From IMG/VR virus record IMGVR_UViG_3300022868_000067, positions 1 through 32,022 of that record: a DNA stretch of 32,022 nucleotides; one strand, written 5' to 3'. This DNA comes from a virus. Made by a program: the position numbers and the translations under genes. The first letter of the stretch is position 1. Every line of letters begins with the position of its first letter. Positions 7,199-25,871 of the stretch are shown piece after piece. The notes beneath the pieces are model-generated. The model did no database searches. It saw only the letters and a list, made by a program, of their open reading frames with translations, and had not been told where the DNA came from.

Positions 7199-8455
7199 TT
7201 ATACTTTGCCTAATATGCTTGTTCTGATTTCTCCGACCCATTTGTCTAGACACTCTCCAGCTTGTGCATGAATAATAGCCTTAATGTCTTGGACTTTCTT
7301 GTCTGAAACCTCTTTCTCGTTTTTAACCTCTTCTTTAGGAGGCTTAACCTCTTCTTTTTTTACTTCTTTTTTCTTTTCGTTTATAGCCTTGATCGCCTCA
7401 AGAATATCCTCAAGACTTACTGCCTTGTCATCTTCTGCTGTGTTTATCTCTGCTACATCCAATATGCTTTGAATGTTCTCTCTTGCTATAACCAACTTTG
7501 CTTTGTTATTCTTACTTAATACCGCACCAACCTTTTCCATTACATCAGTCATTGCTTTCTCTATTCTCGCCAATATTTCTTTTCTATCTATCTTGCCCTC
7601 TTCAAATTCCAATAGTGAATCGCTAATCTTGACTAGGTTTTTTGATTCATCTACTTCTTTATCTCCTTTGTCATCTTCTACTTCCTCTCCGGGACCGGGA
7701 CGATCTGCCCTGCGCATAGTTCCGCCACATTTCTCGCATTTAATATCTTTACAATGTCCCTCTGTCTCTGTTTCCCATCCGCAATCTATACAACTACATT
7801 TATACGTTTCTTTAACTTCTGGCTTGTCTTTTTTCTTGTCAACTACATCAATAGATTTCTCTTTGTCTTTATCTATAACAGGCTCATCTACTTTCTCTGC
7901 TGGTGTCTCTTCTGCTTTTATCTTTTTCTGTTCTATAATCTGTTTCTTTAACATCTTTTTCAAATTCACATCCTTAACCATTTTAACCGCCTCAAGTAAA
8001 GCGTCAGGATTCGCCGGTACTGGCACTGCACTAAACTCCAACATCTCTTGCTTTGTATATTCTCTACTAATCTCGCTATCTGTCTCTCCATCTATCCATT
8101 TCTTTGGTATAAATCCTACACTCCAAGCACTTAAAAATCCCTCTTCATATAATTGCTTTATCTCTTGTGCGAATTGTGTGCTTGCAAATTTAACCTTTGC
8201 TTTTAGTTTGTCACCTACTGTCTTTACCCACAGAGCTTTACCTATTGGAGGCGAACTATAATCATGCGCCCATAATACAACCGGATTCTTTCTATAATTA
8301 CCAAGTTCAAACCCACTTGCCCTTAATACCTCATTATCCCTGTCAGGTGTTTCGGTACTAACAGCAACAACAAATGTCCCCTCGTCAGGGAGCTTATCTT
8401 CTACTGTTCCAAGATAATCCTTTATTGGATAATTTCTTTTCTCTTCTTTGCTCAT
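7199..8455 (-). CDS. HK97-type prohead protease with C-terminal zinc ribbon and scaffold-like tail
   Basis: A 418-residue protein. Residues 1-165 are the U35/HK97 prohead protease: VVAVSTETPDRDNEVL, the histidine in VVLWAHDYSSPPIG, the serine in GFLSAWSVGFIPKKW, and LEFSAVPVPANPDALL. Beyond residue 180 the protein is lysine/glutamate-rich and likely coiled, which fits an attached scaffolding region. Near residue 220 sits a four-cysteine zinc ribbon (CIDCGWETE...CEKCGG) that is not usual for this family. The C-terminal part (EEVKPPKEEVKNEKEV) is low-complexity. The gene sits behind a leader with a putative promoter, micro-ORF and terminator. Confidence 0.88.
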   Translation of the reverse strand: MSKEEKRNYPIKDYLGTVEDKLPDEGTFVVAVSTETPDRDNEVLRASGFELGNYRKNPVVLWAHDYSSPPIGKALWVKTVGDKLKAKVKFASTQFAQEIKQLYEEGFLSAWSVGFIPKKWIDGETDSEISREYTKQEMLEFSAVPVPANPDALLEAVKMVKDVNLKKMLKKQIIEQKKIKAEETPAEKVDEPVIDKDKEKSIDVVDKKKDKPEVKETYKCSCIDCGWETETEGHCKDIKCEKCGGTMRRADRPGPGEEVEDDKGDKEVDESKNLVKISDSLLEFEEGKIDRKEILARIEKAMTDVMEKVGAVLSKNNKAKLVIARENIQSILDVAEINTAEDDKAVSLEDILEAIKAINEKKKEVKKEEVKPPKEEVKNEKEVSDKKVQDIKAIIHAQAGECLDKWVGEIRTSILGKV

Positions 8456-8481: not shown

Positions 8482-8526
8482 GAAAAAGGGATAGACACTT
8501 CGATTTTACTCGAAACATCTATCCCT
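8482..8526 (-). terminator. Terminator/attenuator hairpin in the prohead protease leader
   Basis: On the minus strand an outer 9-bp stem (AGGGATAGA with TCTATCCCT) is separated by a symmetric 3x3 internal loop from an inner 5-bp stem (TTCGA with TCGAA). It is followed at once by TTTTTCTATT, a standard intrinsic terminator layout. It lies about 30 bases before the protease start codon, so it would control entry into the head-gene transcript unless antiterminated. Confidence 0.75.
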
Positions 8527-9784: not shown

Positions 9785-10458
9785 AACAAATCCTTATACT
9801 TACCATTAATATCCCCTATTATACAATCTACCTTTTTTTGTATTGCTTCCTGTCCACCTCTACCACCACCAGCCCAGTGTATAATAAAAGGATTCTCTAT
9901 CTCTTTGTCTACTCTTGGGATGTAATGCTCTTGAGATGTAAGAAAATGAATGGGTGTCCTATGAGCATATATGCGGTAGGTAATAGTATTCTGCTCTGCT
10001 AAAAAGCCAGATGTCAGCACTTTAGCACTGCGATAATTAAATAACTCTCGCTGTTGGCTAGATACTATAATTAACCCACTATTATAATAATGGACACCCC
10101 ACTCAATCTTTCCTAATTGCTTTTCAATTCTATCCTTAAATTTATCTATACTGCTTTTACTAATCTTAATACCTATCTTATTCTCCGGCACTAATCTAAA
10201 CATATCAGGACAGTTCTTTGTTATAACCGCATCATAATCAACCAGCATGATCCTGTCATACATTCCTAACAAGTCATAGATTTGAAACTTCTCATATCTA
10301 ATATCAAACTGTGTAATTGGATGTACTACTAAATTATTTATGTTTACAAAGTCCGCACCTATTCTATGAGCATATTTAATCATTGTGTTGGCTGTGATAT
10401 TGCCTAATCCTCGCCATAGCTGTCCGACATTTACTGTTACTATTGCATTTCTGCTCAT
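9781..10458 (-). CDS. GT8/glycogenin-like glycosyltransferase
   Basis: A 225-residue GT-A enzyme if started at MSRNAIVTVNVGQLWRGLGN. Key features are ADFVNINNLVV, KFQIYDLLGMYDRIMLVDYD with the DxD-type DYDA donor/metal site, then HYYNSGLIIVSS and FIIHWAGGGRGG, all in the order of GT8 family members. An upstream in-frame ATG at 10512 would add 18 residues, but the start at 10458 makes the usual ATGA overlap with the upstream gene and matches the start of the truncated copy. No membrane segments, so a soluble enzyme. Located between portal and protease genes. Confidence 0.8.
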   Translation of the reverse strand: MSRNAIVTVNVGQLWRGLGNITANTMIKYAHRIGADFVNINNLVVHPITQFDIRYEKFQIYDLLGMYDRIMLVDYDAVITKNCPDMFRLVPENKIGIKISKSSIDKFKDRIEKQLGKIEWGVHYYNSGLIIVSSQQRELFNYRSAKVLTSGFLAEQNTITYRIYAHRTPIHFLTSQEHYIPRVDKEIENPFIIHWAGGGRGGQEAIQKKVDCIIGDINGKYKDLL

Positions 10459-22329: not shown

Positions 22330-22418
22330 ATTTTATCCTTATAACGTAGAGGGCTTTTCCTAAGCTTCCCACCATTTTCCCTTTCTAACCCATCGCTTAT
22401 TCCAAGCCCTCTATTCAT
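22326..22418 (-). CDS. Possible leader micropeptide before the helicase, 30 aa
   Basis: MNRGLGISDGLERENGGKLR then KSPLRYKDKI, ending by ATGA on the helicase start. AAAGGA lies ten bases upstream. A perfect 10-bp inverted repeat lies inside it, so either the peptide or an RNA fold could be the functional element. Confidence 0.4.
   Translation of the reverse strand: MNRGLGISDGLERENGGKLRKSPLRYKDKI
22347..22413 (-). repeat. 10-bp inverted repeat upstream of the helicase gene
   Basis: TAGAGGGCTT (22347-22356) and AAGCCCTCTA (22404-22413) are perfect inverted copies around a 47-base loop. The RNA stem would close just before the helicase ribosome site (AAGGA) and may tune helicase translation. 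Confidence 0.6.
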
Positions 22419-23023: not shown

Positions 23024-23767
23024 TTAAGTTATTCGGTTATCAAGGTAATCAGGTCTCTGTTCTTTCTGGCTATTGCTGGGCTTGTTATTCATTTTTATTT
23101 CTAGGCTATCTATTTGTTTGCGTAATTTATCCGTAGAAAGTATATTCACGCACCAGAAGTCATCCTCTTGACACCAACGAATAACCTTTTCAATCTCCTG
23201 CGGAGTTCTCTTGTCTATATGCAAAAGCCTGTCTATATGTAAAGCCCATTTCTGTATGTCTGGATGTTTAAAGTTAGCCTTTCTTTTTTGTATTAAGTTA
23301 AATAATAAATTAGAAAGTCGGACTTCTTTAGAAGTTTGACTATATAGTTTCTTTACATTCTTTACATTCTTGTTTATAGTTGTGCTTTCATTGTGCTTTG
23401 ATTGTGCTTTCATTGTGCTTTCTGTTGTGCTTTTGTAATTATCTAGTGTTTGGAACTTGTTATATTTCAACACTTTAACAGTAATTCCTCTTGTGCTTTT
23501 GGTTGTGCTCAACATTCCACTTTTCTTAAAGTATGTCATTGAGTGCCTTATCTGGTCATAACTTATATCTCGACCTATTTGCTTTAGTTCTTGAGTGAAG
23601 TTAAAGAATCCCTCACCTCTATTAAAATGCTTATTATTATCATGGTTTACTTTGCCTAATATATATATCCAAATTATTTTCCATGATGACGGCTTTTCAA
23701 GCCAAAGCTGGCTATTAAATAATTGCCTTGCTATTTGAAAAGCACCCTCTTTGATTTTATTATCCAT
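23024..23767 (-). CDS. Replication initiator / replisome organiser (winged-helix, DnaD-like layout)
   Basis: 247 residues. The N-terminal half (GAFQIARQLFNSQLWLEKPS, then WKIIWIYILGKVNH and IGRDISYDQIRHSMTYFKKS) is a winged-helix DNA-binding domain of the type seen in phage replisome organisers. A serine/threonine/asparagine-rich linker (residues about 115-145) follows. The C-terminal part (RTPQEIEKVIRWCQEDDFWC) resembles the DnaD-like or helicase-loading domain. It should bind the origin and load the downstream DnaB-like helicase. The linker is encoded by DNA with 11-bp iterons, the probable origin. It overlaps the radical SAM stop by eight bases. Confidence 0.8.
   Translation of the reverse strand: MDNKIKEGAFQIARQLFNSQLWLEKPSSWKIIWIYILGKVNHDNNKHFNRGEGFFNFTQELKQIGRDISYDQIRHSMTYFKKSGMLSTTKSTRGITVKVLKYNKFQTLDNYKSTTESTMKAQSKHNESTTINKNVKNVKKLYSQTSKEVRLSNLLFNLIQKRKANFKHPDIQKWALHIDRLLHIDKRTPQEIEKVIRWCQEDDFWCVNILSTDKLRKQIDSLEIKMNNKPSNSQKEQRPDYLDNRIT
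23282..23341. other. AT-rich stretch and 26-bp imperfect palindrome beside the iterons
   Basis: Positions 23282-23315 are nearly all A/T. Next comes a palindrome at 23316-23341: AGTC-gg-ACTTC-ttta-GAAGT-tt-GACT. Together they resemble a DNA-unwinding element and a hairpin of a theta origin placed next to the iterons. Confidence 0.55.
23381..23509. repeat. Origin-like iterons (TGTGCTTTCAT) inside the initiator gene
   Basis: TGTGCTTT starts at 23381, 23392, 23403, 23414 and 23426 (11, 11, 11 and 12 bp apart), and TGTGCT again at 23492 and 23504. Two TTTACATTC copies lie just before at 23352-23370. The 11-bp period is not a multiple of three, so the repeat is not caused by a peptide repeat. Iterons in the middle of an initiator gene are known from lambda O and many Firmicute phages. 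Confidence 0.8.
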
Positions 23768-24725
23768 TATTAAATTCTTCGACCTTATTATTATAGTCTA
23801 CACAAACATCTAAACAGTTTTTTACACATATTTTATCTTTATGAGTATTGTGTTTTTTGAACCAATCTTCTCTTTCTTGTCTAAAATTTTCTCCCATTTC
23901 TCCAATAGGCGATCCACCCTCTCTCATATATATTATACATGGAAAGTGATGTTTTCCAGCAACAGCAACATCATCTCTAACTAAATAACATTTATTGGTA
24001 TCGGATTTTTTAATACCCCTAACATTCCTTTTCTTTTTAAAATTATTAACTCTATATTTAAGGATAGGGTGTCTATTTAAAATATCTTCAGGTAGTTTAA
24101 TTAGCGATTCTAACGCCTCATTATACTGCGCCGCTGATATTACCCTTATATCTGAAGGGTTTAAGCTATCTACATATTTAACCGCTTCAATAGCTTTCTT
24201 TACATTAGTTTCCGTAAAAACCATACCCACTGTTACATAAGTGTACCAAGATAGGTACTCAATATTTTTAGAAACTCTATCAAAAGTGTTTATTCCGCCG
24301 GTCATTTTATTGCTTACACTACAACAACCTCCATCTAAAGATAAAGAAAAATCATTTATTCCTAAATCAACAAGCTCTTTATAAAAATCAAGTGATTGTG
24401 TTCCATTTGTAGATATAGCAATTCTTTTAACATTTGAATTTCTGCAACCTTTTATTAGTTGTTTTAAAAATGGATATATAGAAGGCTCTCCACCACTAAA
24501 TCTTACATTTTGCAATCCATTATCTATCCATAATCCTAAAACATATTGAGCATAAGGCAGTGACATTTCTCCCTGTAATTCTTTTTTAAGTCCCCTACAA
24601 TAAGGGCATTTTAAATTACATCTATCTGTAAGTATAATCTCACAACGCATTAAATTACTACTACTAGAGCTTGTTTTTGCTCTATTATCTGATAGCGTAT
24701 AAAAACCAATATCATCTAATCTCAT
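23760..24725 (-). CDS. Radical SAM enzyme with C-terminal SPASM/twitch-like cysteines
   Basis: 321 residues. The radical SAM cluster motif CNLKCPYC (C36, C40, C43) binds the 4Fe-4S cluster and SAM; GGEP at 78-81 contacts SAM, and STNGT and SLDGG follow in order. The C-terminal region has C246, C263, C300, C304 and C308 (CVKNCLDVC), resembling an auxiliary-cluster SPASM or twitch domain of peptide- or carbohydrate-modifying enzymes. Substrate unknown. No obvious cofactor pathway is nearby. It has a strong GGGAGG site and a structured leader RNA with its own promoter. The neighbours on the other side are zinc-ribbon microproteins. Confidence 0.88.
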   Translation of the reverse strand: MRLDDIGFYTLSDNRAKTSSSSSNLMRCEIILTDRCNLKCPYCRGLKKELQGEMSLPYAQYVLGLWIDNGLQNVRFSGGEPSIYPFLKQLIKGCRNSNVKRIAISTNGTQSLDFYKELVDLGINDFSLSLDGGCCSVSNKMTGGINTFDRVSKNIEYLSWYTYVTVGMVFTETNVKKAIEAVKYVDSLNPSDIRVISAAQYNEALESLIKLPEDILNRHPILKYRVNNFKKKRNVRGIKKSDTNKCYLVRDDVAVAGKHHFPCIIYMREGGSPIGEMGENFRQEREDWFKKHNTHKDKICVKNCLDVCVDYNNKVEEFNNG

Positions 24726-24728
24726 AAT

Positions 24729-24890
24729 CTACCTCCCAAAAGTAAAGCTTCCCCAGCTGGTAAAGATTTCCCGATTGCGGGAGAAATTGACAGAGCTATC
24801 CATTTCTGGAGGTATCTGTCGCTGGAGAAGCCTTTTATTAAACTCTATAATCTTTACCATACTCATATGTATATCACACATAATATTCAT
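24729..24890 (-). CDS. Alternative reading of the leader: 53-codon ORF
   Basis: Open frame MNIMCDIHMSMVKIIEFNKR ... TSWGSFTFGR, ending three bases before the radical SAM start. AGAAAGGA lies seven bases before the first ATG. If translated it would be a possible peptide substrate for the neighbouring enzyme. However, the same bases fold into a well-paired RNA and the promoter -35 box overlaps its ribosome site, so I favour the RNA. Confidence 0.25.
   Translation of the reverse strand: MNIMCDIHMSMVKIIEFNKRLLQRQIPPEMDSSVNFSRNREIFTSWGSFTFGR
24747..24831 (-). ncRNA. Structured 5' leader RNA (three-way junction), candidate riboswitch
   Basis: Minus-strand RNA of 85 nt. P1 is an 11-bp stem: GCTTCTCCAGC (24831-24821) with GCTGGGGAAGC (24757-24747), one G-U pair. 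P2 is GACAGA/TCTGTC (24820-24815 with 24794-24789), stacked directly on P1, then a 4x4 internal loop, then TCCA-GAAA-TGGA with a GNRA tetraloop. P3 is TCCCG-CAAT-CGGGA (24782-24769). The G-U pair and GAAA loop exist only on the minus strand, fixing orientation. It is GC-richer than its surroundings. I cannot match it to a named riboswitch class. Confidence 0.7.
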
Positions 24891-24896
24891 TGTCAA
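24868..24896 (-). promoter_or_regulatory. Extended -10 promoter for the radical SAM leader
   Basis: Minus strand: perfect TTGACA (24896-24891), 17-bp spacer ending TGA, and TATACA (24873-24868), an extended -10. The predicted start is about 30 bases upstream of the structured RNA, giving a leader of about 135 nt. Confidence 0.6.
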
Positions 24897-25328: not shown

Positions 25329-25507
25329 TTTATTATCCCATAACGAGGCTCTAATTCTCCGTCTTTCAGAATATTTCCTGTCCATCTACCTATTCTAGCA
25401 CCACATATAGTGCAATGATATTCACTTATACCATCATAATGTTCTTTACTATCCCATGAGTATTCCTGACTCATTAAATCCTTACTTCCGCATTTTGGAC
25501 ACTTCAT
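25325..25507 (-). CDS. Zinc-ribbon microprotein, 60 aa
   Basis: MKCPKCGSKDLMSQEYSWDS, then YHCTICGARIGRWTGNI. Two CxxC pairs about 30 residues apart form a classic transcription-factor-like zinc ribbon. ATGA overlap with the gene upstream. Many phages carry such proteins without known roles. Confidence 0.72.
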   Translation of the reverse strand: MKCPKCGSKDLMSQEYSWDSKEHYDGISEYHCTICGARIGRWTGNILKDGELEPRYGIIK

Positions 25508-25659
25508 TTCTTTTCTCCCCTGTCATTCATACCAAATATCTCCTTAAACGCTTTAGGCAAATCAGTGCTATCTTGACAATCAGGACACTTACCATATTTT
25601 AATGGGCTATCCTTACCGCAAACCACACATTTTCCCGTGGTATATTCTTCGCTATTCAT
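25504..25659 (-). CDS. Zinc-ribbon microprotein, 51 aa
   Basis: MNSEEYTTGKCVVCGKDSPL, then KYGKCPDCQDSTDLPKAFKE and IFGMNDRGEKK. Its CxxCGK-x4-L-K-x2-KCxxC core matches that of the next gene upstream, so the two are tandem paralogues. GGAGG precedes the start; ATGA overlaps on both sides. Confidence 0.7.
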   Translation of the reverse strand: MNSEEYTTGKCVVCGKDSPLKYGKCPDCQDSTDLPKAFKEIFGMNDRGEKK

Positions 25660-25871
25660 TTTCCACCTCCTAGTAATTTATCATTATCAAACTCTTCTTG
25701 GCTCATATTTCTATGTCTTTCTTGTTCTACGAAACCCATAAACCATCTCTTAAATATCTTAAATACAACAACCTCATGGCATTGTGTACACTTCCTATTT
25801 TTTAGTAGCCCATTCTTGCCACAAACTGTGCATTTTTTATTAGTGTGTTCTTCTTTTATATATCCTCTCAT
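25656..25871 (-). CDS. Zinc-ribbon microprotein, 71 aa
   Basis: MRGYIKEEHTNKKCTVCGKN, then GLLKNRKCTQCHEVVVFKIF. Paralogous to the 51-aa gene downstream but with a longer C-terminus (RWFMGFVEQERHRNMSQEEF). AAAGGAGGAG ribosome site. First gene after the 193-bp regulatory-looking gap. Confidence 0.72.
   Translation of the reverse strand: MRGYIKEEHTNKKCTVCGKNGLLKNRKCTQCHEVVVFKIFKRWFMGFVEQERHRNMSQEEFDNDKLLGGGK

Follow-up and report, generated by a model that had tools for sequence, protein, structure and literature searches.

A predicted pseudoknot leader with a terminator-like stem at the start of a phage replication operon

What is the role of an unusually stable RNA fold lying between a phage promoter and its first gene, and to which gene does it belong? 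The question is raised by the minus strand at 24747-24831 of the window, the whole 32,022-nt stretch of viral DNA analysed here (IMG/VR record IMGVR_UViG_3300022868_000067), where a preliminary description had proposed a three-way-junction leader RNA of no known class in front of a radical SAM gene. The proposed fold coincides with the predicted minimum-free-energy structure. At -37.3 kcal/mol (energies are simple helix sums), none of 200 shuffles of the 85-nt segment is as stable (-19.3 ± 3.1 kcal/mol; z = -5.7), and the segment ranks first in a GC-corrected stability scan of all 85-mers of the window on both strands. The closing stem, originally called P1 and here S2, pairs 24831-24821 with 24757-24747 over 11 bp; within it lie P2 (24820-24789), a 6-bp stem leading to a GAAA-capped 4-bp hairpin, and the GC hairpin P3 (24782-24769). 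The strand assignment also stands: pairing is complete on the minus strand, whereas the plus strand is mismatched in P1 at the minus-strand U-G.

While the hairpins and the closing stem are confirmed, a simple junction is not supported, as a fourth helix had been overlooked that turns the element into a pseudoknot. An inverted-repeat search reveals that the 11-nt junction strand J3/1, AAUCUUUACCA (24768-24758), perfectly complements UGGUAAAGAUU at 24859-24849; when the 110 nt upstream are dinucleotide-shuffled 100,000 times, chance yields a perfect 11-nt complement in 17 cases. The 3' strand of this helix, S1b, abuts P3 and the closing stem at its two ends without a gap, and the element order S1a - L1 - S2a - P2 - P3 - S1b - S2b is that of a predicted H-type pseudoknot with two hairpins within its second loop. 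S1a begins ∼8 nt downstream of a promoter comprising TTGACA (24896-24891), a 17-nt spacer and TATACA (24873-24868) preceded by TGa. The extended -10 element had been correctly recognised, as had the start codon (ATG at 24725, 22 nt past P1). The transcription start predicted from promoter spacing, at about A24860, lies one nucleotide ahead of S1a, which would place the RNA 5' end at the pseudoknot. The parts of the locus are as follows.

24868-24896, minus strand: sigma70-type promoter with extended -10 TGa-TATACA (promoter score 10.5)
24860-24861, minus strand: predicted transcription start (A24860), from promoter spacing
24849-24859, minus strand: S1a, 5' strand of pseudoknot helix S1, UGGUAAAGAUU (complementarity, covariation, shuffles)
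24832-24848, minus strand: L1 linker, 17 nt
24821-24831, minus strand: S2a, 5' strand of the original P1, GCUUCUCCAGC (fold, covariation)
24789-24820, minus strand: P2 hairpin, 6 bp, 4x4 internal loop and GAAA-capped 4 bp (apical part not conserved in L136)
24769-24782, minus strand: P3 hairpin UCCCG-CAAU-CGGGA (three compensatory pairs)
24758-24768, minus strand: S1b, 3' strand of S1, AAUCUUUACCA, flush between P3 and S2b (complementarity, covariation)
24747-24757, minus strand: S2b, 3' strand of P1, GCUGGGGAAGC (fold, covariation)
24738-24746, minus strand: U-rich, terminator-like tract UUUACUUUU after S2 (conserved in L136)
24732-24737, minus strand: Shine-Dalgarno sequence GGGAGG of the first gene
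23760-24725, minus strand: radical SAM gene, 321 aa, between the leader and the dnaD-like gene
23024-23767, minus strand: DnaD-like helicase loader, which directly carries the leader in the relative L136

The search for relatives of the element yielded one full homologue, in phage contig L136, and in L137 a truncated copy with the same sequence. All four helices are kept in L136. The alignment of these two sequences comprises 33 bp with 98.5% of cells paired and seven two-sided compensatory changes (two in S1, one in S2, one in P2, three in P3), against 0 to 1 in slid controls, and every helix of the originally proposed junction (P1, P2 and P3) has its compensatory changes. The promoter and the U-tract (tail UUUA[CU]UUU) are conserved as well; the GAAA cap is not, the loop being ACUA in L136 and GUAA in L138. 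The competing possibility of a coding frame of 53 codons fares poorly, as it shows no codon conservation: a 1-nt indel disrupts the +1 AUG frame past codon 9, and a search for protein homologues returned none. A leader peptide or coding ORF is unsupported on these two grounds. The ATG of the frame (24889) falls within the promoter spacer. Covariance model R1, run over 1.1 Mb of viral loci, matches only the window, L136 and the truncated L137 copies, so that the further members described below are topological rather than demonstrated sequence homologues. The motif GATACCNNNNGAAANNNNATAGC has 65 matches in IMG/VR, at chance level and none with flanking stems; a longer gapped motif recovers only the L136 contig, and querying phage and plasmid DNA with the leader yields short chance matches only.

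Genomic context does not support the proposed link to the radical SAM gene. A protein search with the DnaD-like loader, the second gene of the operon in the window (PHROG 2514), leads to the L136 loader (62% identical), which has the homologous leader and promoter directly upstream in a 23-kb contig devoid of any radical SAM gene. Conversely, the leader is absent at the homologous radical SAM genes of L001 (65%), L067 (50%) and L068, and a radical SAM-associated riboswitch is supported on neither count. The position in L136 indicates that the leader belongs to the replication operon. In the window, the radical SAM gene sits between the U-tract and the loader, whose start it overlaps by 8 nt, and was inserted behind the leader. 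Close relatives of this gene (23760-24725, minus strand) occur in a 127-kb contig (L001, 65%) and in uncultured phages of 485-735 kb (50-52%). Known phages whose DnaD-like genes form part of an operon (phiAT3, Lucielle, Cellulophaga phi18:3) do not have the leader, and no relatives were found through the exonuclease gene.

As to function, we see about an even chance that the first ∼123 nt of the phage replication operon transcript (24860-24738, minus strand) form a cis-acting attenuator-type leader. A strong stem followed by a U-tract lies between promoter and gene in the window and is conserved in L136, and in neither locus is the stretch from S2 to the gene long enough to hold another promoter. 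Prefix folding places S1 ahead of S2 during transcription. These features, together with the ribosome-binding-site complementarities of relatives described below, favour the attenuator-type reading, whereas a C breaks up the U-tract and, for an intrinsic terminator, the 63-nt loop of S2 is large. As to a mutually exclusive antiterminator fold, the nested folds of the window stand at -39.9 (S1 only) versus -42.3 kcal/mol (S2). On this model, P2 and P3 would fold first, followed by S1, from the 5' end and the junction strand, and then by S2, whose 3' strand, flush with S1, runs into the U-tract. S2 and the U-tract would most likely act as a promoter-proximal intrinsic terminator inside the pseudoknot: some transcripts would stop at the U-tract, giving a short, stable RNA whose 5' end is sealed, while the remainder would read through into the genes for the radical SAM protein, the DnaD-like loader and DnaB. 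S1, pinned at the 5' end, would be the likely control element, stabilising or hindering S2, and in some relatives it may swap partners with the ribosome-binding site.

The short RNA could instead be the main product, with trans-acting effects on targets such as RNA or protein of the host or of a superinfecting phage, and with downstream expression as incidental read-through. Its 5' end sealed at the predicted start, its terminator-like 3' end and the precedents of RCd22-abiF and type III toxin-antitoxin systems fit this alternative, which we nevertheless consider unlikely: the gene lies 5-25 nt downstream in most members, neither the window nor L136 can accommodate a second promoter, and no conserved loop sequence points to one target. 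Both this alternative and the autogenous operator discussed below are ranked beneath the attenuator-type leader.

Beyond L136, the same topology recurs in phages of unrelated leader sequence. In the loader relatives L272 and L273 (53%), the leaders keep the helix order but show no sequence similarity. A strict scan for flush crossing helices followed by a U-tract, over 1.18 Mb of AT-rich viral loci, returned six matches at -34 or below (the window, L136, two in L272 and a spurious L071 repeat, one match being a duplicate), against none at -24 or below in one shuffled set; a second shuffled set, from a larger set of loci, gave two at -24 and none at -27. The L071 repeat and apparent pseudoknots in GC-rich loci were rejected as background. 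A promoter-anchored scan, made without the U-tract requirement and with expectations from shifted control positions, found 17 pseudoknots at -24 or below (about 10 distinct, some phages being present twice) versus 1.1 expected among 1,345 strong viral promoters, and 10 versus 0.27 at -30; as the viral loci were partly picked as loader or HNH relatives, these counts show association with promoters and not prevalence, and as helix lengths and cut-offs were set after the first members had been seen, the member counts are approximate. The tails of these matches are mostly U-rich. No pseudoknot at -22 or below was found at 357 promoters of bacterial loci.

Members precede DnaD-like or replication genes (the window operon, L136, L272, L273, L170), HNH endonucleases (L272, L273, L300, L301, L380, L324), a gene judged tyrosine integrase-like on visual inspection of its sequence (L138), as well as genes for small or HTH-like proteins (L288 twice, L152). 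At least four such leaders occur in phage G003. The adjacency of replication genes in the window, L136, L272, L273 and L170 would suit a DNA-level element, such as an origin or single-strand initiation hairpins. This is most improbable, given that the S1/S2 G-U pairs work only on the gene strand, that S1 holds a fixed position at the predicted transcription start, and that the same design also stands upstream of HNH and integrase genes. A 5'-end protector or processive antiterminator of the put/EAR type, stabilising the mRNA or modifying RNA polymerase for the long replication operon, would match a structure at the extreme predicted 5' end of the operon whose topology is kept without its sequence; put and EAR, however, have conserved sequence, and a U-tract right after S2 is unexpected for either, making this alternative very unlikely. 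S1b is also significantly complementary to the ribosome-binding region in L288, L324, L273 and L170 (p 0 to 0.03), as is an S2 strand in L138 and L272 (p 0.02 and 0.05), while the S1 alternatives at the ribosome-binding site of the window are not significant (p 0.28). The loops of a few members are so short that S1 and S2 may exclude each other sterically instead of forming together, and a shared topology may therefore not imply a shared mechanism.

Separately, L169 (4691-4776) and L171 (4135-4212) contain homologous candidate pseudoknot leaders after Bacteroidetes-type TAnnTTTG promoters and share AAGNAAGTTATTA and GACGTGAGA. L170, the phage with a replication leader pseudoknot, also has a borderline Pistol ribozyme match at 9918-9961, minus strand (36.4 bits; gathering score 34.5).

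The HNH leaders of L301, L300 and L380 constitute a second, independent family, in which the loop of a 5' hairpin kisses the terminator loop. All 30 pairs of this family are intact, and 11 of them show two-sided changes, including two in the kissing helix. In the same leaders (L300 2380-2483, L301 2381-2485, L380 10715-10825, minus strand), the stretch between the -10 box and the first hairpin complements the SD-AUG region, with compensating changes.

The claim that the leader belongs to no known class is borne out as far as Rfam goes: Rfam 15 has no match at the window leader, also when the leader region is searched to E 5, and at the curated gathering score there is nothing at the leaders of L136 and the other member loci. 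The closest precedent in layout is the RCd22-abiF leader of a C. difficile prophage (Rfam RF03085), in which promoter, structured RNA, terminator and gene follow one another and transcripts are mostly terminated with some read-through (PMC12373285). It is likewise phage-borne, with a sigmaA promoter, an 88-132 nt structured leader, a terminator and a gene expressed by read-through (PMC12373285), and indicates that such a layout can act by termination with read-through. Unlike the window leader, abiF has two conserved motifs and neutralises a toxin, while the window class has a long pseudoknot, no abiF match in Rfam, and replication, HNH or integrase genes downstream.

In T4 gene 32, a 5'-terminal mRNA pseudoknot is recognised by the cooperative single-stranded-DNA-binding replication protein (PMC535899). 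The T4/RB69 operator thus resembles the window leader in joining a 5'-terminal mRNA pseudoknot to a phage DNA-replication protein; it differs in having a pseudoknot of ∼28 nt followed by an unstructured operator, with neither terminator-like stem nor inner hairpins (PMC535899). By analogy, the DnaD-like loader or another operon protein might bind the 5' pseudoknot and repress its own mRNA, and the downstream genes of the class do mostly encode DNA-acting proteins. Such an autogenous operator is quite unlikely, in that the pseudoknot of T4 lacks an attached terminator-like stem and the leader sequence varies freely among related loaders.

Other comparisons are more distant. Like the H-type pseudoknot riboswitches (preQ1, SAM-II, fluoride, ZTP), the window leader is a 5' pseudoknot coupled to an expression platform; unlike them, it has no Rfam match and no unpaired core conserved across relatives. 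A ligand-binding riboswitch is unsupported, the recurrence of the topology with unrelated sequence arguing against a conserved aptamer. The PeSL cassettes of T4-like phages are small intergenic units of a strong sigma70 promoter and a stem-loop terminator, and are not known to have been described as pseudoknots. The window leader shares with this description a promoter and a terminator-like stem. PeSL identity is not supported by the PeSL phage RB49: the 50 kb of it that were scanned contain no such pseudoknot after a strong promoter, only one weak score-9 match with no gene behind it.

A literature search for the pseudoknot-leader design found no description of it. More tentatively, at somewhat less than an even chance, phages of several hosts may share an undescribed class of promoter-anchored regulatory RNA defined by topology and not by sequence, in which the transcript 5' end is knotted into the terminator loop, S1 would be a strand-swap switch between terminator and ribosome-binding site, and the genes served act on DNA (replication initiators, HNH homing endonucleases, integrase). 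An RNA class of fixed topology and freely drifting sequence is out of reach of sequence-based covariance searches, and pseudoknots are not represented in covariance models. Should the class be real, a layer of regulation right at the beginning of phage operons has gone unnoticed so far, and the members of the class can be found by a simple scan for a strong promoter, S1 at the start site and a flush S2 with a U-tract. It would also offer a direct handle on how phages dose replication initiators, integrases and homing endonucleases.

Other features of the window lie on the same strand. A second long imperfect stem (GAGGGCUU-GGAA-UAAGC ... GCUUA-GGAAA-AGCCCUC) directly precedes the dnaB start at 22347-22413 (-24 kcal/mol with flanks). 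A strong intrinsic-terminator hairpin (GGGATAGATGTTTCGA...TCGAAGTGTCTATCCC-TTTTTC, 8487-8526) is found just upstream of the head-protease gene at 8455. Finally, two adjacent small zinc-ribbon proteins (25504-25871) have similar CxVCGK...CxxC motifs and are apparent tandem paralogues.
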